From a virus, in IMG/VR virus record IMGVR_UViG_3300010354_000084, positions 1-64,000 of that record: 64,000 bases of DNA; one strand, given 5' to 3'. The notes under the pieces are model-generated. The model was not told the origin of the DNA. It made no database searches and saw nothing but the letters and a program-made list of their open reading frames with translations. Of this stretch, positions 25,701 to 64,000 are shown piece by piece. The translations under genes and the position numbers were made by a program. Within the stretch, counting starts at the first letter, position 1. Every line of letters begins with the position of its first letter.

Positions 25701-28700
25701 TAGCTATGAGAAATTGGCAAACAAAAATTAATATGACATTCTTTGAAGACAGTGACGTAGTTGAAGTTAACTCAACGGTTGGTCTCGTTCCTAAAATGAG
25801 ATTGTATTATTACAATCTATCCGACCAGCAAGTTGCTACAGATTATTACATCAAAGAAGTACTTTCGCCAACTCAAGTAAGAATTTGGAAGCATTCTACA
25901 GGAACTTCTGGTTCTGATCATACTTTAGATGGATCTGGAAGCACTGCTGGAAACACAAGACCAATTAATCTAAAATTAGAAGAAGGTCAAACTTCACTTT
26001 TATCTCAGTGGAGAGATGATTTAGTTCCAAGAACAACTGATTATCCAGAATTTCCAGAATGTGCTGATGTTGCTAATACATTAATAAATTTATTTACATT
26101 AATTACAGATATCGTAACTAATAATACCGACGATCGCTATTTTGATGCTACTGATTTAATAGATGCTAATAAAGAATTTATTGCTGAAGAAGTATCTGGA
26201 TGGTTAAAAGAAACCTATGATGGATTTGCTTATCCATTACCAGTATTCACTAAAATTGTTTTAGAACAATCTGTGGCGGATGTATATCCTTCTTATCTAA
26301 AAGTTAATAACTTATCTGACATAAAAGTTGGACAACTAGTTTCCGTATCGGGTGATGCTATATCAGATAACACTTACATATCTTCTATAGATTATGATAA
26401 CAATAGAATTTATTTAACTAAACCATTAAATGCTTTAGTTGGCGATGAAGTTACAATTCATCCTGATGTTTATCTAGATGAATCAATGAGATATAAGGAT
26501 GCTTCAAACCTTATTCTCAAGAATAAAAACTATATTGCCGATAGAGCTCTTGCTGAAGTTGCTGTAGAATATCCAGATTTTAATTTTCCAGGAAATTCAG
26601 TAACAGATGAATTTAGTAGATTTGCTGATGGTTATCGTTTGATTCAGCAAAATAAAAAAGAAATTATTGATTTTGCTTCTGCTGAAATTGCTGTTCAACA
26701 TCCAGATTTTTATTTCCCTGGAGATACACAGACTACACAAAGATCTAGATTTAAAGATTCGTATCGTTTAATTCAATTAAATCGTCAAGAAATTATCGAT
26801 AGCGCCTATGCCGTTATGGCATCTGCTGGACTTCCTAACCCAGCCCCAACTGATCTAGAAAATAAGTGTAAGCGTGATATTGGGTTCTTAGTTGATTACA
26901 TTTCTTTAGATATTTTTGTTGGTGGCAATACATACGCTAGAAAATTTATTCTATCATATTTTGATGGAAATAATTTTATTTCGAATGGATTGGCAGGTGA
27001 AGTAACACAATCTATCACAGCATTTAATGCTGCTAGAGATCTGATGAAGCAAGCGATTGCTAATCAATTGACTATCAAAGATTTAACTATCACCGATGAT
27101 CCATTAACTAATGATAACACAGATCCTAACTCATGTGCTAATGTACAATCTGCCATCACATCATTAGTTGCTGTTGTAACAGATGTATTATCATCATTAG
27201 ATTTGAATGACTTAGCAGTAGAAAATGATGGAAACAATAATAGATATGAAGATGCTGCTGATCTCATTTATAGTAACAAGCAGGAAATTATTGATCGTGC
27301 TGCTGCTCAGATTGGTGTAGATTATCCAGATTTTTATTATCCTGGAGATCCACAAACAACTCCAAGATCAAGATTTAAAGATTCTTATCGTCTAATTCAA
27401 CAAAATAAAACTGAAATTGTTACTACTGCTTGGACTAATATGGTTACGCAGTACCCAGCAGTTGCTTCAACAGAAACAAAATGTAAGCGTGATTTAGGAT
27501 ATTTTGTTGATGCTATTTCTCTTGATCTTGCTCAAGGTGGTGGTAATAAGTACTCTCGTAAATTTGTGTTACAATATTTTAATAATGGAGTTCCTATTTC
27601 TAATGGTCTTGTTGGTGAAGTCACTGAAAGTGTTTATGCTTTTAATCAAGCAAAAAACTTAATGCAGGCAGCGATTACTAACCAATTAACTGTAAAAGAT
27701 CTAACAATAACCGCAGATCCAAATCCAGGAACTGGATCTTCGTCGAATACAAATATTACTTCTTGCTCTAATGTACAAACAACTATTTCAAATTTAACTG
27801 GTTTAGTTACTAGTGTATTACAAAACGGAAATCTGTCTGGATTAGCGGAAGAAACAAATGGAATTATTCCAGATGGCGAAGCAAAATGTAAGAGAGATAT
27901 AGGACATTTTGTAAATGCTATTGAAGCAGATTTAAGACAGTTAACTGATTACAATACAAGAACATTTTTATCATATTATTTTGAGGAAGATGGAACAGGT
28001 TGGGCAAGCACAACTCTAGAAGGAGAACAAACTCAATCTATTGTTGCTTTTGAAAAGGCGAGGGATGTTATTATCTTAGCATTCACGAATCAGTTATATG
28101 AGAAAGATTTAACTATTACAGAAGATCCTTTAACTGGAAGCAATATAGATCCAGATTCTTGTTCAGATGTTCAAACTCTTGTAGGAACTCTAACTACATT
28201 AGTGACAGACACTATTACCGCTGGATCTCTTGGATCTTCTAGACAGAATTTTATTTCTGCTGCTACATATAATATTCTTCGTGGGGAGATTAAATGTAAG
28301 AGAGATATCGGATACTTTGTTGATGCTGTTTCTTTGGATGTATTCACAAAAGGAAACATATACTCCAGAGAATTTACAAAGCAATATTTCACTAATGTTT
28401 CTTCCCCATTAACAAATGGTTTAGTAGGAGAAACCGCTGAATCTATCACAGCTTTTAATAAAGCTCGTGACATGATGAAAAAAGCGGTAACAAATCAATT
28501 ATTTGTGAAAGATTTAACTTTATCGGAAGGTCCTGCTACTTATGGTGGTGGCGGTGGAGATATTCCATTACTTCCTTCTGGAAATACAAACTCTTGTGTT
28601 GATGTACAATCTGCTATCACAACTGCTACACAAATTATTACAACAGTAATTTCCGATGGTGACTTAGCATCTCTAGATTCATTCACAGAATCTCAAGGAG

Positions 28701-31700
28701 AATTTGGTATTGGGGAAACTAAGTGCCGTAGAGATATTGGTTACATTATTGATTCTGTAGCAAAAGATCTTGCTGATGGCGGAAATTGGAGATCTGTAAC
28801 TGCTGCTAGATATTATTTCACTGAAGGTCAACCAATTTCAAATGGTTTGGTTGGTGAAGAAGCAGCTTCTATTGTTGCTTTTAATAAAGCAAAAGATTTA
28901 ATGATTTCTGCTATCACAAATCAATTAAATTATCATGATCTTTCTATTAGTATAGATCCAGAGAGATTATCAAACCTCGACAAATATTCATGTGCTAATG
29001 TTCAGTCAACTATTACAAATTTAGTATCAATCATCACTACAATAATTGATGATGGTAACCTAAATTCATTGAATGGTATTACTGTTACCAAAGGATCTTA
29101 TTCAACGAATGAAAGAAAGTGTGTAAGAGATATCAAATATATGATTGATGCTGTCATTAATGACATCACTTTAAATGATTCAAATAAAAACAGTATTAAT
29201 TATGCTAATTTCTACAAGCAACAAAATGGTAATATTAAATTAATTGATAGTCAATTAATTCAGTCTGTTGCTGCTTTTAGAAAGACTAGAGATCTCTGTG
29301 TTCTTGCTATGAGAAATTGGACAGAGTTCCCACAAAAACAATTATATAATAAGAAATACACAGATTTGAATTACATTAGAGATGAATTTGTAATTGTAGA
29401 TGATGAAACGCCATACTGTTCTAATGTGGCATCGGCAATTACTTCTAGATTTGATTTGATTATTAACATTTTAACTGGAGATGCTGATAATGAATACTTA
29501 GATACTGCCAATCAAATTGCTATTAATGAAAACTTTATTATTGAGGAATCACTCGCTGCTGGCGAAGTCGCTTTCCCGAATACCACAATTCCAAATATTA
29601 CTAAGTGTAAGAGGGATTTAAGATTTATTCTTCGTGCTATTCAACGTGATGTAATTTTAGGAGGAACTGTAGGAATTATTAGAGCTGCCGATTCTTATTT
29701 AACTGGCGCTAATTCAGGTGTAGATTTTGTTGGAGATCAATTAGGAAAAACTCTACACATTTATGAATATGCTAAGCATATGGCAATTGCTGCTACAAGA
29801 AATTGGCATTTTGAAATACAAAATTGCGCAACTTCTGGTGGTTTTGCTACTGTATCAGTTCCAAATACTGATGGAATAGTTATTGGAATGAGAGTATCTG
29901 CTAATCAATTCAGATATACTGATTACACCCCAAATGCTTATGCTCACGTAATTGGAATTGACAGAGAAGATAATATAATTACCTTAGATCAAGTAGCAAA
30001 TGTAACTACAACTACAGCAAAACTGTACTTCACTTTCAGTGAAGTTGGTGCTCCTTGGTTCGATGCTGCTAATAGTATTTCTGCCAACAAGACTTTTATT
30101 GCTCAAGAAGCTGTAGGATATATTGAAGATATCTATCCATATTTAACTACATTGAATGCCTCGCCAGGATATACTGAATTAGTATCAGATTATGATAATG
30201 CTACGTGTCAGCGAGATATCGGATATGTTTTAGATGCTTTCATTCATGATTTAAGATTTGGAGGAAACTCAGAAACAATTAGAGCAGCAGAATATTACCG
30301 AGATGCTTCTGGTCACTTAGATTATATTGGTAATCAGTTAATTCAAAGTCTAGAGACATTTGAAAAAGTAAAGGATTTAGCAATTCTTTCTATAAGAAAT
30401 TGGAAGACTGGTTCTAGCACAACATATACCAAAGAATATGCTACAGCAAATTATGTAGTAAATAATGATCTTTTAGATGATCCATCTGGTTATCCAGAAT
30501 GTGCTTTCGTTGAATCTTCTATTGAATCACTGTTTGAACAATTTATTGATGTACTAACAAATAATTCTGGTGGCACTAAGATTGATGCTGCTAGATTAAT
30601 CGCTAGAAATTTTGTATATATTGCTGAAGAAGCATTAGGTGCTGCTAACAATCAATATCCTTTAATTAACATACCAGATGAAACTAAGTGTAAGAGAGAT
30701 ATTCAGTTAGTATTAACAGCGATTATTAAAGATATAATTACTGGAGGAAACTCTGGAATTCTACAGGCAACAGAAGCTTACTTAACACCAGTGGGAGCTG
30801 TAACATTCATTAATGATGAATTACAAAAGAGTCAGTATGCTTTTGAATATGCTAAGAATTTAGCAAAATTAGCAATTACAAATAACTTACCAGCAGGAAC
30901 ATATACTCTAGAAACTCCTTATACAGATCTTTCTATTTTACCAGATCCTATTACAAATGATAATACTGATCCAGATTCTTGTGCTAATATTCAAAGCACT
31001 ATAGAATCTATCTGGGCAATTTTAGATAGTGTTTTAACTCAATCTGGTGCTCCATTACCATCTCCAAATTATGGTATTCAATATAATGTTATTAAATATT
31101 ATCCACAAAACTTCCCTGGAAAGTTTGCTGGAACATACTTTAAAGGATTACAACGTGCTTCTACAGATGAATTTATCACTGAAGATACTTCATATCCAGA
31201 ATGTTCAACTGTTGTAACCACTCTAATAAATTTATTTGCTATTTTATCTTCTACATTAAATGGCAATCCTTTACCAGAAGTCACAAACGATAATCCATTC
31301 ACACCTACATTAAACCAAGGTACTCTTTATAACCCAACAGTTATACAAGGTTCTGGAACTATGACTGATGCTGGTAATAGACCAGTAATTCGTGGCAGAA
31401 TGATTAATGCTAATGATGTAATTGAAGTATCTCCTTATATCCAAAACTGTTCTATTATTTCATTCTTAGGTGGCGGTGGATGTGAGGTTGATGGTTCTAA
31501 GATCAAGCAAATTAACGTACCTCGTCCTGGATTAGACGAGAATGGTAAATCTATTTTAGCACCTCAGGGTAAATCAATGGTTGCTAATGCGTTTACCATT
31601 ATTTCTCAAGGGGGTACTGGTTACTTAGTTAAAGAAGATGGTTACTGTCAGCTTGTGTCTGTGTTCTGTATCTTCTGTCAAGATGGTATTCTTGCTGAGA

Positions 31701-34700
31701 CTGGTGGATATGCTTCTGTAACTAACTCTGCTTCAAACTTTGGTACATATGCTTTACGTGCCACTGGTTATAGAAGAGAACCATATTCTTTCGATATTGG
31801 AACCATTGGAGAAATTGGTGTTAGTTCTGCTGGTAAAACAATATTTAAACTTAATGGTTTAGGAAGAAAACCACAAGAAAACTTTATTATGAAAATTGAT
31901 GGATATCAGAATGTCGTTTCTGATATCGAATATTTTGTTACCGTAGTATCACAAACAACAGTTGGTGGTACAGGAGAAGTTTCTTCTCGAATTGAATTAA
32001 ATGATGCTATTTTAGTTAAAAATATATCTTCAGGGTTAACTGTAAATCTGAACACTTCCGAATTAATTGGCAAGACTGTAAGATTATTCAGACCATCTAT
32101 TATTAACTCATCTGGTCATTCATTTGAATATATTGGTTCTGGTATTAATTATTATGGTCTACCAGAAAATGGTGGTCAGAAAAAAGAAGATAACGAACAA
32201 GTATCTCAAAGATATGGTAGAGTTTATGCTTCAGGTACTGATGAAGCGGGAGACTTCAAAGTAGGTCGTACAGTGAAGATGGAAAACCGTACAGGTAACA
32301 TCTACTTCACTGGTCAGGTATCAATTTCTGAGATTGAATTCTTACGTATTCGTGGTGGTGATCTTATAGTTACTGGTTTTGATCAATCACCAACCTTAGG
32401 TGGTGCTGCTGCTACAAATCAAAAACTACCTACACAAAAAGCAGTTCGAGATTTTGTAACAAATAACCTTGGTCCTTTCTTCAATAAACCATATTCAACC
32501 AACCCAGTACCAAATGCTCTGGTAGAACTTGGAAATGATGGTAAGATTAACTTAGATCAAATTCCTCCCATCAGACCATTCAAAGTTTATACAGTTGCTA
32601 ATAGCACAGAAAGATTAGCATTAGAAGGTTTAAATTCTGGTGATATTGCTGTTCAGGTAACTAGATTAAATGATGTTGTTAGTTATACTGATGTAGATGT
32701 AGCGAATAATAAAATCTATACACCAAAAACTGGATTTAGTAGTGGTCAAATTGTAAGTATCACAAATGTTACTGGTGATCCTATACTTACTGATGGTGGA
32801 CCTGTAACTAGTGGAAATTTTTATTATATTATTGTATTAGAAAATAATTACATTCAATTAGCATCTTCTCCAGAAAATGTTATTAATGAAATTCCATTAG
32901 TAATTACAGATGAAGGAAATGGAAACACTTCTATTGAGATTGCTACAGGAACTGTATCTTATATTTTGAACAATGATTCAGATTCTCAATTCTTAGCATA
33001 TGCTCCAGATTCCGATGTCACTTTCACAAATGGACAACTTGTAATTGGATCAGCAACTGGAGCAATCGGCACTGTAGACGATACTTTAGAAGGAACATTA
33101 TATTCAATTTCTGTAGTTTCGGGAGGAAACGTTTATTTAAATGAGTCTCCATCTATTATAATTTCTGCTCCAGATCTTCCAGGTGGTGTTCAAGCAACAG
33201 CCACAGCTGATGTAGTTGGTCTTAGAATTTCTTCTATTAAAATTACAGAAAAAGGAAGTGGGTATAGCACACCTCCAACAATTCAATCTTCTATTGGAGA
33301 AATTGCCTGGTCTTCTGGACAATCATATGACGTTGATGACTTAATTTATGTTGGAACTAATTTATATACGGTAACAATTTCTGGAACTTCTGGAAATTCT
33401 GCTTTTAGTGGACAGTCTGTTACTCCACAACCAGCAGATGGTGGAACTTGCTTCTACTCGTATGTTGGAGAAAGAGCTGAAATAATAGGATTTGTTGAGA
33501 GTAGAGTTTACATTAACATTGAAAATGCCACAAAATTTATTGATACGGACAATATTGAAGATCATTCAACTCCACAAAACACAGTTAATATTTCTAGAGT
33601 AGTTAATACTTCAAGTACGAATGAATTCAATTGGGTTCCATTGACTACTGCTTCTATTGATGCTTCCAGTATTTCTACAGGAACAATTTCCACTTCAAGA
33701 TTATCATTACCAAATAGTGGATCAGCAAACTCATTTACATTTTTAAGAGGTGACCAATCTTATAAACCAGTTGTACAAGGATTGAAATTACCAGAAACTA
33801 AATTCTTACAGAAAGTACTAATTACTTCTGAGAGTGGATTAAGTTATTTAACTTTCCCACTAACTAGTTTAATACAAACTGGACAGAGAGTTGAAGGTAA
33901 TGGCATTCCAGCGGATACAATTGTTAGTGATACAGTAACAATTTCTGGAAACACTAGGGTAATTTTAAGTTCTTTAATAACAAATACTATAACAAAAAAT
34001 AGTATTATTACTTTCTATAGAACAGAAACACCATTACAATTTGATTCCACCTTCACTAAAGGTGCTTATGCTGCTAATATTTTTATAGAAAATCCTGGTA
34101 ATTATTTCATATCTACTGGTTCTGGAAATAGTGGAGAAAATACTATTATTGTTGTTGATGGAACAGGAGTAATCTTAAATCAACAAGTAACTGGAACTGG
34201 TATAGGAACTAATGCTACTGTAACTGATGTTACATTTACAACTGGAACAGAAGCAATTATTACACTATCCACAAATAATACTTCTTCTATTACTAACCAA
34301 TCAATACAATTCGGCAGACCATTTACAACAGGAACATTCAACAATATTGAACTATTCGGTTCAAATACTGGATCTGGTGCTAAAGCTTCATTTACCATAC
34401 AGAATGGTTTAATTTCAAACGCAGTAATTACTGATGGTGGAATTGGGTATACTGAAGATTTCTTCATAAGTCCAATTCCAGGAGCACTTGGTACTGGCAC
34501 AGGTGCTATATTGAAAGTACTTGCTTCATCACAACAAACTTATTTCTCAAATATTGAAGTCGATATTAAGAGAGTAAATAACCAGACAACATCATTAGAT
34601 CCATATGGAACTGTAGGTGTTGCTAGATTCTTAAAATCTCAATTTAATTATGGACCAAATGGTGCTCTATCATTAAAAACTGGACCAGAATCTGGATTAG

Positions 34701-37700
34701 ATTCTGACTTATTAGATGGTAAGCAAGGAGCATTTTACCTAGATGCTTCAAACTTAGATTCTGGAACATTAAGATCAGATAGACTTTCTGGAACATATTC
34801 AATTGATATCACTGGTAAATCTGGTACTACTTCAAGACTCGAAACAAATACAGATTCTATTAATGCTATACCAGCACCTTCGGCTTATGCTTCTGGGTTA
34901 TCTTTAGCTCTAAGAATTTCGGAAAATTATAGATCTACAATATCTGACCGAACATTAGAAAATGAAGGTTCGAGAGTTACATTACTGACTGTAAGACCTT
35001 CTGGTATCGGCACCGATGCTGGTGGTGGTGGTCTTAAGCAGTTAGCATTTACTGATGGAACAGTAAACGTTGGTACAGGCGGTGGTGGTCCTAGTTCAGC
35101 AATTACTTCAGACGATGTTGTACCAAACCTTTATATTCGTGGTACTGGCAACATTATCCCAACAGATCCAACTAATGCTTGGTCTCCATGGTATAAAGTA
35201 TGGACATCTGGTAATGATGGCGTTAATTCTGGATTAGACGCTGATAAGCTACAATCAAAAGATCTTAAATGGTTTACTAATGGATTTAACATTGATGGTG
35301 GATCTATTAATGATAGTAGATTACAACCAATTTTAACTACTAAGAAATTCTTAGAATCTTTAACGACAGTAAGATACATCGATAAACCACATTATGAAAT
35401 TTATTTCTCTGGAAGACTTAACAACGGAGACTTGAATTTTGCTATTGGAAATACATATTCATTATATAATGACATTTTACAAGTTGTTGGTAATGTTACA
35501 TTAAAACAGATTGAACAGAAATTCCCAATTGAAACAATAAAATCTGAACTGAATTATGTTGTATTGACAGTACAATTAGATAGTGGTTCAATTGGATCTG
35601 CTACAAAGATTGGATATACTGGATTCGAGCAATCATGGAGTTCTTTGAGAATTTCTCCATTTGGAACTTACACATCATCTATTTTAGAAGATGATGGAAC
35701 TGGTGCTAGATTAATTCTTGGAAGAAATGATGGTAATAACGTTGCTAATAACACTCCAGCAAATGGATCTATAATTGATTTCCATTCCAGTGGGGCATTT
35801 AATGATTTTGATGTAAGAATTAAAGTAACTGGTGGTAACAGCAGCAATGGCAATGGTGCTCTAAACATCACTGGTAATGGATTTACTTACAATAATAATA
35901 CAGTATGGCATTCTGGAAATGACACTGATGATTCTGGTCTAAACGCTAATACCTTACAGGGCATTACAAGATTCCAGGTAATGAGATCTGATCAGGATAC
36001 TTCAACATCTGGCAACCTAACTGTTACTGGAACTTCAACTCTAAACAGTTTAGTCGTTATTAACGATGCTGCTCAATTAGCAGATAATACAATCATCGAC
36101 CCAGATAGCTATGCTAACAAGGTTGTTGCTGGTACTATCGCTGATGGCGGCGGTTTCTCTGCTCTAGGTATTGGTGGTCAGAATGGAACTGGTAAGTCAT
36201 GGGCTATTGGACATAATGGAACTTCATTGTTCTTTGCTATTGGAAATGGAAGTGCTGCTAATACTTTATCGTCTTGGGCAAAAGTAGATTCAGATAGAAC
36301 TATTAGATTATATGCTAAAGACAATAGTTCAATTTTCTTCACATCAGGAAATACCGATTATAGAATTTGGAATGAAAATAATGATGGTTCTGGATCTGGA
36401 TTAGATGCTGATTTACTTGATGATAAAGATTGGAATTCCAGAGATAAATCAATTCTAAGAAACTCTGGAGATCATATTGCTGGTGGTATTTACATTAATA
36501 ATGGTACTAAGTATCAGTCATCTAATTACGGTTTCTTACTTAAGCATTCTGATGCTACTGGTGTTTCTACTGGTGGTGGTGGAAGATTAGATATTGTATT
36601 TGGTAACGATGCTTCAAGATCGGCAGATAACGTTGTAAATACTTTAGCAACATTCTCCTTCGATAAGTCTGGTCAGTTAATTATTCCAGCTTCTACTGGA
36701 ACTGCTCCATTCTCAATTTCATCAACAACTAAAGTAACCAATCTAAATGCTGATTTACTTGACGATCAGACTGGTTCTTACTACACCAATATGGACAATG
36801 CTGATGCTGGGACTCTGGCAGCAGTACGTGGTGGCACTGGATTGAATTCATATTCTGTTGGCGATATTTTATATGCTACTGCCACAACTCCAACTCTAGG
36901 TAAGTTGACAATTGGTAGTGCCAATCAAATTCTAACTGTAAATTCTTCTTCTACTGCCCCTCAGTGGACAACTCCTTCAACTATCACTGTTGGATTTGCT
37001 ACTAATATTGGAATCACATCAGACACAGCAACAACATCTGCTTTAGCTGTAGGATTCTTTAGTACATCTAGTTCCACAGCACCAGTCAAGTATAGCACAG
37101 ATTCAACAAACGGATTAACATTTATTCCAAGTACAGGAACATTAAAAGCGTCAATTTTCTCGGGTGCTTTATCTGGTAATGCTACCAGTGCTACAAATGT
37201 TTCTGCTGGTGGTTCTGCTGGTTCTCTATTATATCAATCATCTCTCAACACTACAACAACACTTGGAATTGGAACAGCTGGACAAATTCTTGTTGTTAAC
37301 TCTACAGGAAATGCTCCTCAATGGACAACTCAAAGTGCTCTCACTGCTGGTAATATTGCTGGCGGCGCTCAGGGAGAGATTTTATATCAATCTGGTCCTG
37401 GATTAACAGGAAAACTTGCTGTCGGTACTGCTGGATTTATTCTATCTACGAATGGAAGTAATCAAAATCCTTCATGGATTTCTCAGTCTTCGATTACAGC
37501 GGGCAATATTAATGCTGGTACTACTGGTGATTTACTTTATCAATCTGCTTCTAGTAGCACTTCTAAATTAAATATTGGAACTGCTGGACAAGTTCTAGTT
37601 GTTAATGCTGGTGCTACCGCTCCTTCGTGGACTGACCAAAGCAATATAACTGCTGGCAATATTGCTTCAGTTGCTGGAGACAATTTCAAACTTCTCTACC

Positions 37701-39286
37701 AATCTGCTGCCAATACGACATCAAAACTATCAACAGGAACTGCTAACCAAGTTCTTCTTTCTGGAGGTTCTGCTGCTGCTCCAACATGGGTCAATCAATC
37801 TTCAGTTACAGCGGGCAATATTAGTGCTGGTACTACTGGTGATTTACTTTATCAATCTGGTGCTGGTGCTACCGCTAAGTTAAATATTGGAACTGCTGGA
37901 CAAGTTCTAGTTGTTAATGCTGGTGCTACCGCTCCTTCATGGGTTGCTCAAAATACACTCACTGCTGGCAATATTTCTGGTGGAGCTAACGGAGAACTTC
38001 TATATCAATCAGCATCTGGAACTACAACTAAGTTGGCAGTATCAACTGCTGGATATATTTTACAAACCAACGGAGGTGGATCAGCACCTTCATGGGTTGC
38101 TCAAAATACACTCACTGCTGGCAATATTTCTGGAGGAAGTGCTGGAGAACTTCTATATCAATCTGCTTCAAATACTACAGCAAAATTATCAGTAACCGCT
38201 GCTGTTGCTGGACAAGTATTAATATTAAATGCTAGTAAGATCCCATCATATACAGATCAATCAAATATAACTGCTGGCAATATTGCTTCAGTTGCTGGAG
38301 ACAATTTCAAACTTCTCTACCAATCTGCTGCCAATACAACATCAAAACTATCAACAGGAACTGCTAATCAAGTTCTACTTTCTGGTGGTTCTTCTGCTGC
38401 TCCAGCATGGACAAACCAAAGTTCACTTTCTGTTGGATCTGCTGGCAATATTACTGGAGGTAATCAAGGTGAACTTCTTTATCAATCCGCTGCTGGTACA
38501 ACATCTAAACTTGCTGCTGGGGCATCAACCCAAGTATTGATTGGTGGAACAACATCACCAGCTTGGTCAAACATTAGTGGATTAAATGTATTATCTGCCG
38601 TCAATTTAAGATTGGCAGCTAATAATACTACTGGCGCCATTCATTATCAAACTGGAGCTGATGCTACCACTGGTTTAGCAATCGGAACTGCTGGTCAAGT
38701 TCTAATTGTTAATGCTGGTGCTACTGCTCCTTCATGGACTGCTCAAAGTACGTTATCCGTGGGATCAGCTACTACAGCAACCAACGTTACCGCTGGTATG
38801 GTTGATAATGCTGATAATTACATGAACTTCCGTGTAATGAGAAACAGCAATACCACAACTAATAATGATGGTATGTTCATTGGTTATGGAAATAGCAATA
38901 GTGGAATTACAAGATTATATGGTGGTGGATCCACAACCAATAACGTAACTATTAACTCTGCTGGCGATATAACTGCTTCTGGTCAAATTACAGCATCTTC
39001 TGATGTTAAACTTAAGGAAAATATCACTACAATTGAAAATGCTCTTCATAAAGTTTCTAAACTTCGTGGTGTAGAATTTGATAGAATTGATATTAAGACT
39101 CATCAAATTGGTTTAATTGCTCAAGAAGTTGAAGAGATAATTCCTGAGGTTGTTCAGGAAAATGAAAATGGTTATAAGACTGTTGCTTATGGCAACGTAG
39201 TCGCTCTACTCATTGAAGCAATCAAGGATCAGCAAAATCAAATTAATGCTCTTCAAGAAGAAATTAAATCTTTAAAGAACAATTAA
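22787..39286 (+). CDS. 5499-residue tail fibre with helical repeats and S74 chaperone
   Basis: The largest gene in the window (16.5 kb, roughly 0.6 MDa product). Order of parts: 'GSGY..P.I' beta modules (residues about 60-140); a tail-fibre linker (RIATTKFVYDVATND); the start of a pectate-lyase-like beta-helix at about 237-345 (GSDTNNGRSPAKPVKTIKKA); a WxxxxxY.V.D module near 440; 11 alpha-helical repeats (about 680-2830); the resumed beta-helix (about 2847-2990, IQNCSIISFLGGGGCEVDG). After that come a connector (GDFKVGRTVKMENRTGNIYF, about 3148), a second W-Y-D module near 3505, 'SGLDADLLDG'-type fibre repeats (about 3950-4600), 10-11 short 'LLYQS' repeats (about 4690-5320), and a Peptidase_S74 intramolecular chaperone from about 5404. 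The likely role is a long trimeric receptor-binding fibre. Fibres of this length are unusual for T4-like phages. Confidence 0.8.
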   Translation: MSLKFNPKKQFIESSELNLNGKSFLTLSSGEGTENKEIVRVVRKNGTSRVGLNRTGEKIAKVTITNPGSGYLITPAITVSSPDGNINSRVAVLSAVRDPDTGSIISVLITDPGKGYTSPPSISFSDAPQGGVTARATCELDTIDYELDVLGAIRTSASIVSDSATVTNLNVQNFVTPGISLRAPRLVPYTNLTNTNLPFYGQTVYPESVTPPLQDQSNRIATTKFVYDVATNDVGGRIYVSSEIGSDTNNGRSPAKPVKTIKKAAQLAAATPVRETLIVAGGEYYEDNPISIPPLCSVIGDNLRLVIVRPLNPGRHMFKASNQNYMNGLTFRDALDTEGNPVYTHNFAFVFDDKQRFYFDDEIGGDPTRIDGSDSFQRRFPIGHKMFGQRSAILKIKEHDGDITTLQTLISNNISIVGQSSSCSAKVSSIISATPIPDYEWSEEQEYVLEDIISVEDSIYKVTTAGTSGTIAFSGTLSTPKQATNGTAAYIYLGDKKEAILNIIVNENSPAVTYTDDEVVQYTINNNFYSFNVALFTSTRAEGEVVKYGETEVRNYVVQSINASSWSTYPTPGDDGQLTVGSGGVVITFDGLHDLKEFDIVNIAKPNNSPSALSSFFGYQRVDEVLYDSDGFSRRIVIKKQIAPNYNSVYEPPPGQCTVRAKTKYVEISLLNSPYGFTDSTFTSYRFLDAVTFIRNNRDFIAEEITGAITSKYPDFVYPGTATSRYRFKDSRNLIYKNLDYIADEAIGWLYNESNYAVWGQSNLDKKDKCRRDVKYFLRGVANDLYDGGNKNSILVAKSYFNAVTGAPITGGIAGVEAQSVAVFNKARDLAKLAITNSLPVKPTYSPLSPYTDFSLTADPTTNTNQQNSNNCSDVRTAIDNLAFIVTDTIINGVNVLPEPTSNTQDGENFCKRDIKHILNAVMADLPYGGNAISVEAAKSYRNNSTSSIEYIANQHRQSRFAFRLARDYSILAMRNWQTKINMTFFEDSDVVEVNSTVGLVPKMRLYYYNLSDQQVATDYYIKEVLSPTQVRIWKHSTGTSGSDHTLDGSGSTAGNTRPINLKLEEGQTSLLSQWRDDLVPRTTDYPEFPECADVANTLINLFTLITDIVTNNTDDRYFDATDLIDANKEFIAEEVSGWLKETYDGFAYPLPVFTKIVLEQSVADVYPSYLKVNNLSDIKVGQLVSVSGDAISDNTYISSIDYDNNRIYLTKPLNALVGDEVTIHPDVYLDESMRYKDASNLILKNKNYIADRALAEVAVEYPDFNFPGNSVTDEFSRFADGYRLIQQNKKEIIDFASAEIAVQHPDFYFPGDTQTTQRSRFKDSYRLIQLNRQEIIDSAYAVMASAGLPNPAPTDLENKCKRDIGFLVDYISLDIFVGGNTYARKFILSYFDGNNFISNGLAGEVTQSITAFNAARDLMKQAIANQLTIKDLTITDDPLTNDNTDPNSCANVQSAITSLVAVVTDVLSSLDLNDLAVENDGNNNRYEDAADLIYSNKQEIIDRAAAQIGVDYPDFYYPGDPQTTPRSRFKDSYRLIQQNKTEIVTTAWTNMVTQYPAVASTETKCKRDLGYFVDAISLDLAQGGGNKYSRKFVLQYFNNGVPISNGLVGEVTESVYAFNQAKNLMQAAITNQLTVKDLTITADPNPGTGSSSNTNITSCSNVQTTISNLTGLVTSVLQNGNLSGLAEETNGIIPDGEAKCKRDIGHFVNAIEADLRQLTDYNTRTFLSYYFEEDGTGWASTTLEGEQTQSIVAFEKARDVIILAFTNQLYEKDLTITEDPLTGSNIDPDSCSDVQTLVGTLTTLVTDTITAGSLGSSRQNFISAATYNILRGEIKCKRDIGYFVDAVSLDVFTKGNIYSREFTKQYFTNVSSPLTNGLVGETAESITAFNKARDMMKKAVTNQLFVKDLTLSEGPATYGGGGGDIPLLPSGNTNSCVDVQSAITTATQIITTVISDGDLASLDSFTESQGEFGIGETKCRRDIGYIIDSVAKDLADGGNWRSVTAARYYFTEGQPISNGLVGEEAASIVAFNKAKDLMISAITNQLNYHDLSISIDPERLSNLDKYSCANVQSTITNLVSIITTIIDDGNLNSLNGITVTKGSYSTNERKCVRDIKYMIDAVINDITLNDSNKNSINYANFYKQQNGNIKLIDSQLIQSVAAFRKTRDLCVLAMRNWTEFPQKQLYNKKYTDLNYIRDEFVIVDDETPYCSNVASAITSRFDLIINILTGDADNEYLDTANQIAINENFIIEESLAAGEVAFPNTTIPNITKCKRDLRFILRAIQRDVILGGTVGIIRAADSYLTGANSGVDFVGDQLGKTLHIYEYAKHMAIAATRNWHFEIQNCATSGGFATVSVPNTDGIVIGMRVSANQFRYTDYTPNAYAHVIGIDREDNIITLDQVANVTTTTAKLYFTFSEVGAPWFDAANSISANKTFIAQEAVGYIEDIYPYLTTLNASPGYTELVSDYDNATCQRDIGYVLDAFIHDLRFGGNSETIRAAEYYRDASGHLDYIGNQLIQSLETFEKVKDLAILSIRNWKTGSSTTYTKEYATANYVVNNDLLDDPSGYPECAFVESSIESLFEQFIDVLTNNSGGTKIDAARLIARNFVYIAEEALGAANNQYPLINIPDETKCKRDIQLVLTAIIKDIITGGNSGILQATEAYLTPVGAVTFINDELQKSQYAFEYAKNLAKLAITNNLPAGTYTLETPYTDLSILPDPITNDNTDPDSCANIQSTIESIWAILDSVLTQSGAPLPSPNYGIQYNVIKYYPQNFPGKFAGTYFKGLQRASTDEFITEDTSYPECSTVVTTLINLFAILSSTLNGNPLPEVTNDNPFTPTLNQGTLYNPTVIQGSGTMTDAGNRPVIRGRMINANDVIEVSPYIQNCSIISFLGGGGCEVDGSKIKQINVPRPGLDENGKSILAPQGKSMVANAFTIISQGGTGYLVKEDGYCQLVSVFCIFCQDGILAETGGYASVTNSASNFGTYALRATGYRREPYSFDIGTIGEIGVSSAGKTIFKLNGLGRKPQENFIMKIDGYQNVVSDIEYFVTVVSQTTVGGTGEVSSRIELNDAILVKNISSGLTVNLNTSELIGKTVRLFRPSIINSSGHSFEYIGSGINYYGLPENGGQKKEDNEQVSQRYGRVYASGTDEAGDFKVGRTVKMENRTGNIYFTGQVSISEIEFLRIRGGDLIVTGFDQSPTLGGAAATNQKLPTQKAVRDFVTNNLGPFFNKPYSTNPVPNALVELGNDGKINLDQIPPIRPFKVYTVANSTERLALEGLNSGDIAVQVTRLNDVVSYTDVDVANNKIYTPKTGFSSGQIVSITNVTGDPILTDGGPVTSGNFYYIIVLENNYIQLASSPENVINEIPLVITDEGNGNTSIEIATGTVSYILNNDSDSQFLAYAPDSDVTFTNGQLVIGSATGAIGTVDDTLEGTLYSISVVSGGNVYLNESPSIIISAPDLPGGVQATATADVVGLRISSIKITEKGSGYSTPPTIQSSIGEIAWSSGQSYDVDDLIYVGTNLYTVTISGTSGNSAFSGQSVTPQPADGGTCFYSYVGERAEIIGFVESRVYINIENATKFIDTDNIEDHSTPQNTVNISRVVNTSSTNEFNWVPLTTASIDASSISTGTISTSRLSLPNSGSANSFTFLRGDQSYKPVVQGLKLPETKFLQKVLITSESGLSYLTFPLTSLIQTGQRVEGNGIPADTIVSDTVTISGNTRVILSSLITNTITKNSIITFYRTETPLQFDSTFTKGAYAANIFIENPGNYFISTGSGNSGENTIIVVDGTGVILNQQVTGTGIGTNATVTDVTFTTGTEAIITLSTNNTSSITNQSIQFGRPFTTGTFNNIELFGSNTGSGAKASFTIQNGLISNAVITDGGIGYTEDFFISPIPGALGTGTGAILKVLASSQQTYFSNIEVDIKRVNNQTTSLDPYGTVGVARFLKSQFNYGPNGALSLKTGPESGLDSDLLDGKQGAFYLDASNLDSGTLRSDRLSGTYSIDITGKSGTTSRLETNTDSINAIPAPSAYASGLSLALRISENYRSTISDRTLENEGSRVTLLTVRPSGIGTDAGGGGLKQLAFTDGTVNVGTGGGGPSSAITSDDVVPNLYIRGTGNIIPTDPTNAWSPWYKVWTSGNDGVNSGLDADKLQSKDLKWFTNGFNIDGGSINDSRLQPILTTKKFLESLTTVRYIDKPHYEIYFSGRLNNGDLNFAIGNTYSLYNDILQVVGNVTLKQIEQKFPIETIKSELNYVVLTVQLDSGSIGSATKIGYTGFEQSWSSLRISPFGTYTSSILEDDGTGARLILGRNDGNNVANNTPANGSIIDFHSSGAFNDFDVRIKVTGGNSSNGNGALNITGNGFTYNNNTVWHSGNDTDDSGLNANTLQGITRFQVMRSDQDTSTSGNLTVTGTSTLNSLVVINDAAQLADNTIIDPDSYANKVVAGTIADGGGFSALGIGGQNGTGKSWAIGHNGTSLFFAIGNGSAANTLSSWAKVDSDRTIRLYAKDNSSIFFTSGNTDYRIWNENNDGSGSGLDADLLDDKDWNSRDKSILRNSGDHIAGGIYINNGTKYQSSNYGFLLKHSDATGVSTGGGGRLDIVFGNDASRSADNVVNTLATFSFDKSGQLIIPASTGTAPFSISSTTKVTNLNADLLDDQTGSYYTNMDNADAGTLAAVRGGTGLNSYSVGDILYATATTPTLGKLTIGSANQILTVNSSSTAPQWTTPSTITVGFATNIGITSDTATTSALAVGFFSTSSSTAPVKYSTDSTNGLTFIPSTGTLKASIFSGALSGNATSATNVSAGGSAGSLLYQSSLNTTTTLGIGTAGQILVVNSTGNAPQWTTQSALTAGNIAGGAQGEILYQSGPGLTGKLAVGTAGFILSTNGSNQNPSWISQSSITAGNINAGTTGDLLYQSASSSTSKLNIGTAGQVLVVNAGATAPSWTDQSNITAGNIASVAGDNFKLLYQSAANTTSKLSTGTANQVLLSGGSAAAPTWVNQSSVTAGNISAGTTGDLLYQSGAGATAKLNIGTAGQVLVVNAGATAPSWVAQNTLTAGNISGGANGELLYQSASGTTTKLAVSTAGYILQTNGGGSAPSWVAQNTLTAGNISGGSAGELLYQSASNTTAKLSVTAAVAGQVLILNASKIPSYTDQSNITAGNIASVAGDNFKLLYQSAANTTSKLSTGTANQVLLSGGSSAAPAWTNQSSLSVGSAGNITGGNQGELLYQSAAGTTSKLAAGASTQVLIGGTTSPAWSNISGLNVLSAVNLRLAANNTTGAIHYQTGADATTGLAIGTAGQVLIVNAGATAPSWTAQSTLSVGSATTATNVTAGMVDNADNYMNFRVMRNSNTTTNNDGMFIGYGNSNSGITRLYGGGSTTNNVTINSAGDITASGQITASSDVKLKENITTIENALHKVSKLRGVEFDRIDIKTHQIGLIAQEVEEIIPEVVQENENGYKTVAYGNVVALLIEAIKDQQNQINALQEEIKSLKNN
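24830..31280 (+). repeat. eleven helical repeats inserted in a beta-helix
   Basis: Three helical motifs recur eleven times each. A: 'DA..LI..NK.FIAEEA', often followed by a 'YPDF.FPG' turn. B: 'CKRDIGYFVDAVSLDL..GGN', with an 'AF.KARDLA..AITN' helix downstream. C: 'DP.SC.NVQS.I..L..I'. Motif B starts near nt 25093, 25516, 26868, 27482, 27886, 28295, 28724, 29120, 29607, 30208 and 30690. Copies differ in length (about 400-1350 bp apart) and in sequence, so this is an old, diverged array. Its ends fall between two halves of a beta-helix. Confidence 0.8.
36850..38770 (+). repeat. ten or eleven ~155-bp 'LLYQS' coding repeats
   Basis: Copies encode 'AGNISGG..GELLYQSASGTT.KL..GTAGQVLVVN.GATAPSW' and lie near nt 36870 (diverged), 37215, 37380, 37530, 37690, 37840, 37990, 38145, 38310, 38470 and 38640. 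Near-identical DNA blocks include 37643-37755 with 38264-38376 (113 bp, two differences seen), 37568-37626 with 37880-37938 (59 bp, none seen) and 37934-37980 with 38087-38133 (47 bp, none seen). The array lies just before the S74 chaperone, so it forms the distal shaft or tip. Confidence 0.85.
38996..39286 (+). other. Peptidase_S74 intramolecular chaperone domain
   Basis: The last 96 residues of the 5499-residue fibre carry the S74 pattern: SSDVKLKEN, then KLRGVEFD, HQIGLIAQEVEEIIPEVV, YGNVVALLIEAIK and a C-terminal coiled-coil. By analogy with endosialidase-type fibres, the nucleophile is Ser5405, with Lys5410 five residues on. Such domains drive trimer folding and then cut themselves off, which would leave a mature fibre of about 5404 residues. 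Confidence 0.85.
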
Positions 39287-58991: not shown

Positions 58992-60718
58992 TTATTTTTA
59001 AAACTATACGATGGAAGAACTTCCTTTCTACGGGAAATGTTTTTACTGAAATTGATTTATCATCTAATAAAACTAATTTGATTGTTGGTGCTAATGGCGC
59101 TGGAAAAAGTACAATTTTAGATGCCCTTACATTTTCTTTATTTGGCAAACCTTTTCGTAAGATTAATAAACCAATGCTGGTTAACAGCATTAACGAAAAA
59201 GATTGTTTGACTGAGATTGAATTCTCTATTGGAAAAAATGAATTTAAAATTCGTAGAGGTATTAAACCAAACATCTTTGAAATTTATCAGAATGGTGTTA
59301 TGCTGGATCAAGCATCATCTGTAATTGATTCTCAAAATCAATTAGAACAAAATATTCTCAAGATGAATTATAGATCTTTTACACAAATTGTTGTGTTAGG
59401 ATCTTCTACTTTTGTTCCTTTTATGCGTTTGCCTGTAGCACAACGTAGAGAAATCATCGAAGACATTCTTGATATCCAAGTGTTCTCTGTGATGAATCAA
59501 GGATTAAAAGAAAAGGTTAGAGTAATCAATGATGAATTGAAAGATCATGTTTATCGTTACGATCTTCTTAAAGAAAAGATAAACATGCAGAAGCAGTTTA
59601 TGCTTGATATCGAAAAGAAAAATAATGAAGACATTCAAGAAAAAGAGAGCAAGAAAGAATCTCTACTACAAGAAGCTCTAAACTATGAGACACAAATCAT
59701 CGATAACGACAAGGAAATCGACACTAAGACCACTGCCGTTTCAGACACGTCGAAAGTTAAAGCAACGATTGCTAAGGTCGATTCGTTACGAAACAAAATA
59801 TCGTCCAAACAAAAGTCACATCATAAAGAAAAAATATTCTTTGAGCAGAATGACACATGCCCGACCTGTGGGCAGAGTATTGAAGAGCATTTTAAACAAG
59901 AGAAGATCCAAGTTCTCTCGGATAAACTTGTTGAGGTGGAAAAAGCTATGTCTGATTTGGGACAACAACTTTCCAATCTCCAAAGTCAAGAAGATACCTT
60001 TATTCTTTTGATTGATGAAATAAACGAACTCAATCTAAAGAATCGACAACTCAATAATGAAATTAAATCACTTCATAAACGAATTGAAGAAATAGATGAA
60101 GAGATTAAAAAACTTAAAGACAATAATGTAAATCAAAAAGAACAATTTGTTATATTAAAAAATTTAGATACAGAAAGCAAAGTAGTTCAAAAAACTATTT
60201 CTGATACTAAAGAAGAAAAGGATTGTCTTTCTGCTGCCGCTCTTCTTTTAAAAGATAATGGAATTAAAACCAGAATCATTAAAAAGTATTTGCCAGTAAT
60301 GAACAAGTTGTTGAATCAACATCTTCAAAGTATGGACTTCTATGTTAACTTTACATTGAATGAAAACTTTGAAGAAACAATCAAGTCACGTTACAGGGAT
60401 GTGTTTTCTTATGAATCTTTTTCTGAAGGAGAAAAAGCTAGAATTGATATTTCTCTTTTGCTTACTTGGAGAGCTATTGCTAAACTTAAGAATAGTGTGG
60501 ATACTAACCTCCTCATCTTAGATGAAATCTTTGATGGATCTCTAGATCAAAATGGCACTGGTGAACTTGGATGGATTTTGAGAAACTTTGATAAGAATAC
60601 AAATGTTTTTGTCATATCACACAAAGAGCAAATGAGTGACAAATTTAATAGAACTATAACTTTTGAAAAAATTAAAAATTATAGTGTCCCTACTGTGACA
60701 CTTTCGGAACTGTCCTAA
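58988..60718 (+). CDS. gp46: recombination nuclease ATPase gp46
   Basis: A 576-residue Rad50/SbcC-type ATPase (T4 gp46 is 560). Walker A is at 34-42 (GANGAGKST); long coiled-coils flank a zinc hook at 291-294 (CPTC); the signature motif is at about 478-482 (FSEGE); Walker B is at 509-513 (ILDE). The catalytic and hook residues are all present. It forms the DNA-tethering partner of gp47. The stop codon lies within the first arm of a terminator. Confidence 0.95.
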   Translation: MIIFKTIRWKNFLSTGNVFTEIDLSSNKTNLIVGANGAGKSTILDALTFSLFGKPFRKINKPMLVNSINEKDCLTEIEFSIGKNEFKIRRGIKPNIFEIYQNGVMLDQASSVIDSQNQLEQNILKMNYRSFTQIVVLGSSTFVPFMRLPVAQRREIIEDILDIQVFSVMNQGLKEKVRVINDELKDHVYRYDLLKEKINMQKQFMLDIEKKNNEDIQEKESKKESLLQEALNYETQIIDNDKEIDTKTTAVSDTSKVKATIAKVDSLRNKISSKQKSHHKEKIFFEQNDTCPTCGQSIEEHFKQEKIQVLSDKLVEVEKAMSDLGQQLSNLQSQEDTFILLIDEINELNLKNRQLNNEIKSLHKRIEEIDEEIKKLKDNNVNQKEQFVILKNLDTESKVVQKTISDTKEEKDCLSAAALLLKDNGIKTRIIKKYLPVMNKLLNQHLQSMDFYVNFTLNENFEETIKSRYRDVFSYESFSEGEKARIDISLLLTWRAIAKLKNSVDTNLLILDEIFDGSLDQNGTGELGWILRNFDKNTNVFVISHKEQMSDKFNRTITFEKIKNYSVPTVTLSELS

Positions 60719-60742
60719 GGGGGTGAGCGATCACCCCTTTTT
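60717..60742 (+). terminator. intrinsic terminator after gp46
   Basis: GGGGTGA (60720-60726), GCGA loop, TCACCCC (60731-60737), then five T. The stem can extend through flanking A and T bases and overlaps the gp46 stop. The loop is a GNRA tetraloop. It closes the gp55-47-46 transcript. Confidence 0.9.
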
Positions 60743-60775: not shown

Positions 60776-62950
60776 ATGCCCGTCAATCAAGAAGTAAAAG
60801 GTTCTCTCGCCAAACTACTGGCAACTGAAAATCTTGTGATTGAGCACAAAAAAGTTTCTACTGCTTGCTTTGATGTTCTTAATCGTGTACTGACTCTTCC
60901 TATTTGGGATCGAGCGTCTTCTGTTGTCTATGATCTTTTGGTGGGGCATGAAGTTGGTCATGCTTTGTATACTCCCACTGAAGATTGGAGTCAGACTCAT
61001 CATCTTCCCAAAGACTTTGTGAATGTTGTTGAAGATGCCCGTGTAGAAAAACTGATGAAGAGACGGTATCCTGGTCTCGCTAAAAGTTTTTATAATGGTT
61101 ATAAAGAACTGAATGAAGATGATTTCTTTGGAATCTCTGGGACCGATATGGGTCGGGTTTCTTTGATTGATCGTATCAACCTTCACTTTAAAATTGGTGC
61201 TTATGCTTTTGTTCCTTTCTCTACGGAGGAACAAATCTTTGTTGATATGACTGCTAATGCAGAAACCTTTGATGAGGTGCTGGAAGTTTGTCAACGTATT
61301 CTTGAGTATGTAAAAAATAAAAAGCAAGAAGAACAACCTACTATTGAGCAAACTTCTTCTGTTAACCTTGGAGAAGGTGGAGAACAACTTCAGAAAGAAG
61401 AATCTGATGATACTTCTGACGATACTTCTGATGAATCGATGAATGAAGATAATCAATCTAGTGAAGAAGAAGGAAACAACAATCCTTCTCAAACTTATAA
61501 TGATCCTGTAGACGAAACAGTTTCTGAAACTCAACGTACCTTTAATGAAGAAGCAGAAAAACTGACTAATAAATCTAGGTTTGAAGATCCAATTTATGTA
61601 GAGGTTCCTAAAATTAATCTAGAAACTGTAGTACTAAACAATACAGATGTTCGTGATTACCTGACAAAATCTTTTTGGGGGGTTGGTAAAGATAAAGAAA
61701 AGCATTATGGCGACATCTATGCTGAGGCAGATAAACAATTTAATAATTATAAAAAAGAATCTCAAAAAGAAGTTAATTATCTCGTCAAAGAATTTGAGAT
61801 GAAAAAATCAGCTGATAGCTATCAGCGTTTGTCTGTTTCTAAGTCTGGAGTTCTTGACACAAGTAAGCTTCATACTTACAAATATAGTGAAGATCTGTTC
61901 AAGAAAATTTCTGTGATTTCTGATGGAAAGAATCATGGTCTGATTTTCATTATTGATTGGTCTGGATCTATGGGAAACTATCTTCTCGATACAGTTAAAC
62001 AACTGCTCAATCTTTTGTGGTTCTGTAAGAAAGCACAGATTCCTTTTGAAGTCTATGGATTTACTCAAGAGTGGAATCCTAGGTATCTCGATAATGATAT
62101 GTACTACGATCTTCCAGAGCATTATTCAAAACAGCATGGCACTATCTCTGTGTGTAAGTACTTTCATCTTTTAAATTTCTTTTCATCTCAAGTAAGCACA
62201 AAAGATTTCCAAACTGATTGTATTAATCTTTGGAGACTTGCTTATAAGATGTCTGATAGTTATGGGACACAGTATCCAATTCCATATGGATTTGATTTGA
62301 GTTCTACGCCACTCAATGAAAGCATTATTGCTCTTCACCAATTAATTCCACAATTTAAAACAAAATATAAAGTTCAAAAAACAAATGTTGTTCTTCTAAC
62401 TGATGGGGAAGCAAATAATATTCAATATGATGTAAACCTAAGCAAGCGATATCCTGATGGACCTGATCGTTTGGGATCTCATATCCTTCACAATCAAGTT
62501 CTTCGTGATCGGAAACTTGGCAGGATCTATCGTCCTTTCTCAAGTGAAATGCCTGATTGGGTAACTACAATTCTGCTCGAAAATTTGAAAGATAATTTCC
62601 CAGAGATTAATCTGATCGGGTTTAGAATTCTTAATGGCACTGCTGCTTCTTCTCTGGTACGGGAATCTCAGTGTGTTAGTAGGTATAATTATGAAAATGA
62701 TCCTAAAGCTATTAAGAAAGTTGAAAACCTGATGACGATTTGGAAAAAAGAACGAGCAGTTGAACTGAATGAAGGTGTAGGTTATCAAGCACTTTATGCT
62801 ATTTCTTCCACTAATCTTTCTGTTAATACATCGTTTGATGTTTCTGAAACTGCTTCTACTAAAGAAATTGGCAAAGCATTTCGTGGAATGTTAAAGAAAA
62901 AAACAGTCAACAAAAAAATTCTGTCTTCTTTCAGTTCTTTGATTTCTTGA
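60776..62950 (+). CDS. CobT-like VWA protein with HExxH motif
   Basis: A 724-residue protein. Near the N-terminus is a zinc-protease-type HEVGH at 58-62, with a possible third ligand in 'NVVEDARVEK' (Glu86). A very acidic Ser/Asp/Glu linker follows (about 200-265, for example DDTSDDTSDESMNED), then a von Willebrand A domain with the MIDAS motif DWSGS at 394-398 and 'LLTDGEAN'. The 'VEDARVEKL..RR.PG' segment and acidic linker resemble CobT, the cobaltochelatase partner of CobS; cyanophage homologues are often called 'peptidase'. A CobS-like ATPase lies 0.7 kb downstream. Protease activity is unproven. It starts after the gp46 terminator; the ATG has no strong ribosome site. Confidence 0.8.
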   Translation: MPVNQEVKGSLAKLLATENLVIEHKKVSTACFDVLNRVLTLPIWDRASSVVYDLLVGHEVGHALYTPTEDWSQTHHLPKDFVNVVEDARVEKLMKRRYPGLAKSFYNGYKELNEDDFFGISGTDMGRVSLIDRINLHFKIGAYAFVPFSTEEQIFVDMTANAETFDEVLEVCQRILEYVKNKKQEEQPTIEQTSSVNLGEGGEQLQKEESDDTSDDTSDESMNEDNQSSEEEGNNNPSQTYNDPVDETVSETQRTFNEEAEKLTNKSRFEDPIYVEVPKINLETVVLNNTDVRDYLTKSFWGVGKDKEKHYGDIYAEADKQFNNYKKESQKEVNYLVKEFEMKKSADSYQRLSVSKSGVLDTSKLHTYKYSEDLFKKISVISDGKNHGLIFIIDWSGSMGNYLLDTVKQLLNLLWFCKKAQIPFEVYGFTQEWNPRYLDNDMYYDLPEHYSKQHGTISVCKYFHLLNFFSSQVSTKDFQTDCINLWRLAYKMSDSYGTQYPIPYGFDLSSTPLNESIIALHQLIPQFKTKYKVQKTNVVLLTDGEANNIQYDVNLSKRYPDGPDRLGSHILHNQVLRDRKLGRIYRPFSSEMPDWVTTILLENLKDNFPEINLIGFRILNGTAASSLVRESQCVSRYNYENDPKAIKKVENLMTIWKKERAVELNEGVGYQALYAISSTNLSVNTSFDVSETASTKEIGKAFRGMLKKKTVNKKILSSFSSLIS

Positions 62951-62969
62951 TTTGGTTGTGGATTTGGGG

Positions 62970-62998
62970 TTGACGAATCCCAAATCCTATGCTAGTAT
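62970..62998 (+). promoter_or_regulatory. sigma70-type promoter
   Basis: TTGACG (62970-62975), 17 bp, TAGTAT (62993-62998) preceded by TGC, an extended -10. It overlaps the in-frame ATG at 62989, so the gene behind it must start downstream, at 63028. Confidence 0.6.
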
Positions 62999-63027
62999 TT
63001 TTTTATGAATTATATTTTAAAATAAAA

Positions 63028-63528
63028 ATGAATCTTGTAAAACTTTGGGAAACTTATAGCGAGTCCGACCTACAGAAATGTGCTTTATTAACTTTAGATT
63101 ATTTTCCTTTATGGATACAACAAAATAGATGGGCGTGGAAACATAATAAACATGGCGTTATGGCAACTTCATTTGCTAATGCCAAGCAGATTGTTGGTAT
63201 GAAAAATTTCTTTGAATATCATTTTGACGACGAAAAAATAGCAACCAAGTATAAAAAAGCAACTCTAAATTATCTTTCTAATCATCCAGAAGATGTTGAA
63301 AAAAATTGTCCTAATTTTAAATCAACTTTCCCTACTATCTTAAATAGTAAATTAAAAAAATCTATAAACATACAAACTTTAAATGTCCCTGAAGTTCAAG
63401 ATTCGTCTATTTTAATTACAGTTTCTGATCTAGATAAACTTAAAGATTTGATTATCTGTGGACAGAACAACAAAGTAAAAACAATGAAGTTAACTAAGGA
63501 AGGAGACTTGGAATTAGATTACAAGTGA
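63028..63528 (+). CDS. unknown protein between CobT-like and CobS-like genes
   Basis: A 166-residue protein starting MNLVKLWETYSESDLQKCAL; I chose ATG 63028 because the upstream ATG at 62989 lies within the promoter. The first 100 residues are helical and aromatic-rich (YFPLWIQQNRWAWKHNK), the last 40 form strands ending EGDLELDYK. It has no membrane segment or known catalytic motif. It has its own promoter and terminator, so it is a single-gene unit. I do not recognise the family. Confidence 0.6.
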   Translation: MNLVKLWETYSESDLQKCALLTLDYFPLWIQQNRWAWKHNKHGVMATSFANAKQIVGMKNFFEYHFDDEKIATKYKKATLNYLSNHPEDVEKNCPNFKSTFPTILNSKLKKSINIQTLNVPEVQDSSILITVSDLDKLKDLIICGQNNKVKTMKLTKEGDLELDYK

Positions 63529-63551
63529 TCCACTTTTAAAACTGTCCACCG

Positions 63552-63574
63552 CCCCTTCTCACGGAGGGGTTTTT
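63552..63574 (+). terminator. intrinsic terminator before cobS
   Basis: CCCCTTC (63552-63558), loop TCAC, GGAGGGG (63563-63569) with one T-G pair, then five T. It ends the single-gene unit at 63028. Confidence 0.88.
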
Positions 63575-63584
63575 GCTTTATAAT
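63556..63584 (+). promoter_or_regulatory. possible promoter for cobS
   Basis: TATAAT (63579-63584) is perfect; 17 bp upstream is TTCTCA (63556-63561), a 4-of-6 match that lies in the terminator stem. It is a plausible but weak host-type promoter 24 bp before the cobS ATG. Confidence 0.4.
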
Positions 63585-63608
63585 ACTTACATCAACACAA
63601 GAGGTTTT

Positions 63609-64000
63609 ATGCCCCGACTCGCCAACATTGATCAAACTGCTTTGGTTGAATTTCTTTCTAAAAATTATGGTGATGAGTTTGGTAGCAATGCTGTGATTGC
63701 TGCTAGTGATCACTTTGGTGTTTCTTATCCTACTCTTACTAAACGTCTTACTCAATACAAATCTGGCCACGGCCGTTGGAATTTGACTGTTCAAGAAAAA
63801 CTTGAAAACACTTACAATGCTCCTGCTGCTGCTCCAGTAATTTCTGTGGAGCAACATATTGTACACAATCTTGTTCCTGTTAAAGATGATAACTTCGTCA
63901 GCTTTGGTAATTTCAGTGACGTTAAGAAAATTATTTCTTCTGGCCTTTTCTACCCTGTGTTCATTACTGGTCTTTCTGGTAATGGTAAAACTTTCAGTGT
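63609..64000 (+). CDS. cobS: CobS-like AAA+ ATPase, 5' part
   Basis: The first 130 residues of a gene that runs out of the window. The start has AAGAGG at 63599-63604. The N-terminal 75 residues form a helical domain with a helix-turn-helix-like stretch (ASDHFGVSYPTLTKRLTQYK), then a linker, then the AAA+ core with Walker A at 121-128 (GLSGNGKT). Cyanophages commonly carry cobS, named for the cobaltochelatase ATPase of vitamin B12 synthesis; the fold is MoxR-type AAA+. It pairs with the CobT-like gene upstream. The last codons in the window are still within the ATPase core. Confidence 0.82.
   Translation, partial: MPRLANIDQTALVEFLSKNYGDEFGSNAVIAASDHFGVSYPTLTKRLTQYKSGHGRWNLTVQEKLENTYNAPAAAPVISVEQHIVHNLVPVKDDNFVSFGNFSDVKKIISSGLFYPVFITGLSGNGKTFS

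Follow-up and report, generated by a model that had tools for sequence, protein, structure and literature searches.

A CobS/CobT-like gene pair of a marine T4-like phage carries a conserved metallopeptidase-type site in a replication-gene setting, suggesting protein remodelling rather than cobalt chelation

MoxR-type AAA+ ATPases that work with a partner containing a VWA domain are represented by RavA-ViaA, by NorQ-NorD and by cobaltochelatase CobS-CobT (PF06213, PF11775, TIGR01650, TIGR01651). Among viruses, a MoxR-vWA system with an N-terminal metallopeptidase has been described in group 2.2 jumbo phages and, on the model of the MoxR-vWA pair in Acidianus two-tailed virus, proposed to act as a chaperone in virion assembly (PMC7824862). 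In marine cyanophages, cobS is one of the 25 core genes (PMC3037559), and surveys of ocean viruses list it among vitamin B12 auxiliary metabolic genes. Here we analyse a pair of this type, a CobT-like VWA protein and a MoxR/CobS-type ATPase, in the first 64,000 bases (the window) of the 64,232-base record IMGVR_UViG_3300010354_000084, which derives from a marine phage. We favour, with a probability of roughly 0.58, an explanation in which the pair would form an ATP-driven protein-remodelling protease machine acting at the replication/recombination stage, and neither a cobalt chelatase nor a virion-assembly factor. The gene pair itself is already known and both main readings of it have been published; the new content is a constrained protease-type site in two phage lineages and none in true CobT, together with hosts lacking CobN and a replication context. 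The suspicion raised in the original prediction from the window's sequence had been published in part, this architecture having been described in jumbo phages, but the comparative test of it is new.

The CobT-like gene (60776-62950; plus strand, as are the other features located from 60717 onward) is a single open frame of 724 amino acids, and its match to phrog_459 (annotated as 'peptidase', 3.6e-254) spans the whole length of the protein. The product comprises a predicted zincin-type N-terminal domain (residues 1-190; 60776-61345), an acidic linker and a VWA domain. The predicted HEVGH motif was confirmed at residues 58-62 (60947-60961), and the candidate third zinc ligand is Glu86 within EDARVE (61031-61033). 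The metal ion-dependent adhesion site (MIDAS) of the VWA domain (61955-62404) is complete, consisting of D394, S396 and S398 in DWSGS 394-398 (from 61955), T511 (62306) and D543. The ATPase frame starts at ATG 63609, with an alternative TTG at 63573, and its 5' part (63609-64000) encodes a Walker A motif (GLSGNGKT) and matches phrog_249 (7e-71) and PF07728 (4e-14); the gene runs past the window, and its 3' part is missing since the record ends at 64232. The close association of the two genes claimed originally is thus borne out, with an ATPase of MoxR type and a neighbouring VWA protein as in MoxR-VWA chaperone pairs. The phrog_459/phrog_249 proteins of T4-like cyanophages are full-length homologues with the same gp46 and gp45 neighbours, whereas the window has an extra open reading frame between the two genes (62989-63528, 179 amino acids), for which no match was found in PHROGs and none by tblastn in the phage collection. 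The three-part design is also that of the jumbo-phage system, to which it is likened here by description.

To keep the choice of homologues independent of the motif, viral contigs were scanned once with the ATPase as anchor and once with six peptides from other parts of the protein. H58, E59, H62 and E86 were found in 76/76 T4-type homologues covering these columns, those outside the 76 being open reading frames truncated by contig ends, and the Asp/Ser/Ser residues of the VWA domain in 92/92. The four site residues are invariant in 46 homologues at a mean column identity of 50%, indicating selective constraint rather than recent ancestry, and this conservation exceeds chance by far. The same design was found in a distant SSU5-type lineage, which includes phage-plasmids of E. 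coli, Klebsiella and Salmonella as well as phages of Rhizobium, Pseudomonas and Stenotrophomonas. In a further scan anchored on the ATPase, HExxH and the later Glu motif are kept in almost every complete SSU5-type protein; PhiR41_1, with MG1655 as its recorded host, has HEVAH, EDVFIE and DLSGSM. Lack of conservation of HExxH, named beforehand as the outcome that would speak against a protease-type partner, was therefore not observed in T4-type phages or in nearly all members of the SSU5-type lineage.

Structure prediction of the N-terminal domain with AlphaFold2 gave a confident model (predicted local distance difference test 88.2, predicted template modelling score 0.84) with the expected helix arrangement, in which HExxH lies on helix 49-65 and Glu86 on helix 79-97, behind a small sheet. 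Its fold matches in the PDB are mostly HExxH metallopeptidases at weak E-values (0.08-1), the best being minigluzincins (selecase, abylysin, jannalysin), PprI/IrrE, ArdC and Wss1. To our knowledge, none of these is part of a MoxR-VWA protein. PDB sequence searches with the window protein or its N-terminal domain returned nothing relevant or significant. Pfam and NCBIfam fail to recognise the CobT-like protein, PF13203, the DUF2201 type of VWA metallopeptidase, is absent among its Pfam matches at E<=1, and PADLOC gave no match for the phage proteins. The VWA part has fold matches to VWA domains, including that of NorD in the MoxR-VWA complex NorQ-NorD, but the N-terminal domain showed no match to the NorD-type N-terminal part, and the window protein carries an HExxH domain.

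The pair occurs in at least 463 phage records by tblastn, nearly all of them cyanophages; P-SSM2 and S-PM2 hold both genes at the same place (T4-GC 146 and 150), and the best match of the window protein in the phage collection is DSL-LC02 (53.5% identity). Gene order in the window is T4-like, large and probably structural genes being followed by a UvsW-like helicase, gp55, gp47 and gp46. The CobT-like gene precedes the ATPase gene in all 64 testable loci, with gp46 upstream of the pair in 42 of 44 and gp45/gp44 downstream in 57 of 58, and in the SSU5-type lineage a DNA polymerase III alpha gene lies near the pair in 66/66 long loci. The T4-type late-promoter motif ATAAATA gives a second view of this setting. 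Of its 15 plus-strand copies in the window, 12 are located 10-160 bases ahead of a gene start, a placement shared by 7.8% of positions (binomial 2e-11). The genes preceded by the motif all start before 54,300, with 11 starts in the structural block (746-54187), and it precedes no gene from 54718 onward, the CobT-like gene included; among homologues, it was found upstream of the pair in 1/47. Replication neighbours combined with the missing late motif argue for early or middle expression of the pair, and against a mainly structural role.

How the phage proteins relate to cobaltochelatase was examined with family models and profile comparisons. An E. coli phage-plasmid protein exceeds the cut-off for both CobT Pfam domains (PF06213, 7.6e-28; PF11775, 2.1e-81), and the window protein reaches PF06213 at 0.046, below cut-off, and has no PF11775. 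As for the equivalog models, for TIGR01651 (CobT, cut-off 759 bits) a cellular CobT passes with 786 bits, a Klebsiella phage protein scores 80 and the window protein has no match at E<=0.1, and for TIGR01650 (CobS, cut-off 558.55 bits) the P-SSM2 homologue of the incomplete window CobS scores 74.9. In profile comparisons, the N-terminal domains of the T4-type and SSU5-type proteins matched each other at 97.9% (E 5.8e-13), and those of SSU5-type proteins and cellular CobT at 64.5% (E 6.3e-5, 167 columns; reversed controls 0.1-0.65). Compared directly, the T4-type domain and cellular CobT match weakly (7.6%, E 0.0046); the two are linked via the SSU5-type proteins and the Pfam matches. Within this homologous domain, HExxH is present in 0/30 alphaproteobacterial CobT proteins, although the later E-x-A-R-x-E-type motif is kept in 27/30; Sphingomonas CobT agrees in having no HExxH. 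In a tree whose deep placements are uncertain owing to long branches, cellular CobT forms a single clade beside the HExxH-bearing Roseobacter phage CRP-810 (support 96/80). Five HExxH state changes are required, a count that by itself fits gain as well as loss; of the two, loss is more plausible, since repeated rebuilding of three ligands and a general base is unlikely. We infer that the N-terminal domain of CobT may be a decayed peptidase, an idea not found in the literature searched. A wider proposal, to which we give slightly less than an even chance, is that PF06213 represents a decayed zinc metallopeptidase, that the phage and phage-plasmid form is older and would be an ATP-driven protease acting on a replication or recombination protein, and that cyanophage 'cobS' as an auxiliary metabolic gene is a misassigned B12 gene.

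These results bear directly on the published view that the phage proteins CobS and CobT combine with CobN of the host into a working cobaltochelatase, increasing cobalamin for uses such as ribonucleotide reduction (PMC8651126; also in older cyanophage literature). The Pfam matches of SSU5-type relatives and the weak match of the cyanophage ATPase to the CobS model agree with it, and a CobN/ChlH-family protein is present in the cyanobacterial control, so a chelatase role is possible in cyanophages alone. However, the equivalog cut-offs passed by cellular CobT are missed by a wide margin, and the phage form retains the HExxH that true CobT has lost. In addition, 219 of 5,426 E. coli genomes have the pair, every one on plasmid records, while the CobN family is absent from the E. 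coli control genome. Even cellular CobT is not always accompanied by CobN: among 57 alphaproteobacterial genomes, 45 have CobT, 25 of these with a CobN-family protein and 20 without, bearing in mind that some genomes may be incomplete and that the family includes Mg-chelatase H subunits. Cellular CobS-CobT may thus have a CobN-independent role too. The CobS that completes cobalamin synthesis is the unrelated Salmonella-type protein, and a phage CobT-like gene (H265) is annotated as dimethylbenzimidazole phosphoribosyltransferase, which is the Salmonella-type CobT and a homonym error. The statement that cyanophage cobS catalyses the final cobalamin-synthesis step (PMC2984593) likewise concerns a different CobS, and the B12 story rests partly on a shared gene name. 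We therefore regard B12 synthesis as improbable for this pair. The original prediction had also leaned on the lack of CobN or any other B12 gene; CobN (PF02514) was indeed not found in the record, but this says little because the record is a fragment. A protease-chaperone for virion assembly or maturation, for which the jumbo-phage system offers a precedent and the phage requirement for maturation proteases a rationale, is somewhat less improbable by analogy, though still unlikely. In contrast to the structural-module location or late expression expected of a virion-assembly system, the window pair sits between recombination and clamp genes outside the structural block, the second lineage also has replication neighbours, and the late motif that precedes many structural-block genes of the window is missing.

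A plain MoxR-VWA chaperone without cleavage, its zinc site serving as a structural element or regulatory sensor, would account for cellular CobT and for four mobile-element relatives that have lost HExxH, and for the repeated state changes on the tree. In place of HExxH, Pseudomonas phage ZY21 has DSEISK, Stenotrophomonas phage BUCTxx99 has DREVST, an Acinetobacter plasmid has DQEVAK and one further relative (L203) has HEVAR; motor and MIDAS are kept in all four, with an intact D-x-S-G-S-M directly seen in the first three. On the other hand, the retention of all four site residues throughout the covered T4-type homologues at such divergence speaks against this explanation, and the general-base Glu59 would not be needed by a structural metal site, so that we consider it about as doubtful as B12 synthesis. 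The site-less relatives nevertheless count against the protease machine that we favour, since they suggest that the protease may be secondary. Other points weigh on the same side: the fold matches of the N-terminal domain are weak, the neighbourhood and promoter motif bear on timing only indirectly, the main texts searched yielded no expression data for the pair, and the proposal for its substrate is a guess. Given the relatives without the site, proteolysis is not obligatory everywhere in the family. Comparison of the sequences points to the motor-VWA unit as the constant core, with the protease site usually, not always, retained.

With these qualifications, the occurrence of the pair in phages of CobN-less bacteria, the conserved site and the replication-gene setting together point to the remodelling or cleavage of a protein. 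The remodelling role originally predicted is thus supported in so far as a MoxR-VWA pair with a conserved site is present and B12 synthesis is unlikely as its general function, and is tempered by loss of the site in some relatives. In the mechanism that we propose, the MoxR-type AAA+ ring ('CobS') would dock via the VWA/MIDAS domain of its partner ('CobT'), whose metallopeptidase domain would bind zinc through HExxH and the Glu ligand. A recruited protein or complex would be pulled apart, and cut too where the lineage keeps the zinc site, most likely during genome replication or recombination. The target might be a replication- or recombination-stage protein of phage or host. Should the pair prove to be a protease that remodels proteins, the B12 inference drawn from cobS in ocean surveys would no longer hold, and some of the most abundant marine phages would have a core gene pair whose replication-stage role is unexplained. 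Such a protease would also suggest a route by which the cobaltochelatase motor evolved, from a MoxR-VWA machine that carried a protease. With the E. coli phage-plasmid version, the question can be addressed in a laboratory strain without CobN.

Related arrangements were noted in other elements. Pseudoalteromonas phage XG4 (L026 3905-7442) encodes the VWA part and the HExxH part separately, the two genes standing in reversed order ahead of the MoxR region. A comparable combination of protease, VWA and motor is found on a conjugative E. coli plasmid of the IncHI2 type (L038 43-4693), where an AAA ATPase and DUF3150 accompany a VWA protein bearing HEAGH. A 347-amino-acid Anaerobiospirillum protein (L214 1438-2481) has HEAGH, ILEDARIEKLM and a weak match to the CobT N-terminal domain, and is possibly a stand-alone protease domain. 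The AAA proteins of Kayvirus and Lactobacillus phages retrieved with the CobS query were dropped, the neighbours examined being without HExxH and without a clear VWA domain, and Acinetobacter phage Mithridates has an AAA gene without an adjoining HExxH/VWA partner. No homologue was found within the ~99 of 147 kb read of HTVC008M (Pelagibacter).

As for the remaining layout of the window, a terminator-like hairpin with a 10-bp stem and a T-rich tail (60717-60740) lies between gp46 and the CobT-like gene, and the pair may be its own transcription unit; terminator-like sites number 15 in the region against 3.7 expected. Three giant open reading frames (2648-10729, 10938-22169 and 22787-39286, encoding 2693, 3743 and 5499 amino acids) fill about half of the window.

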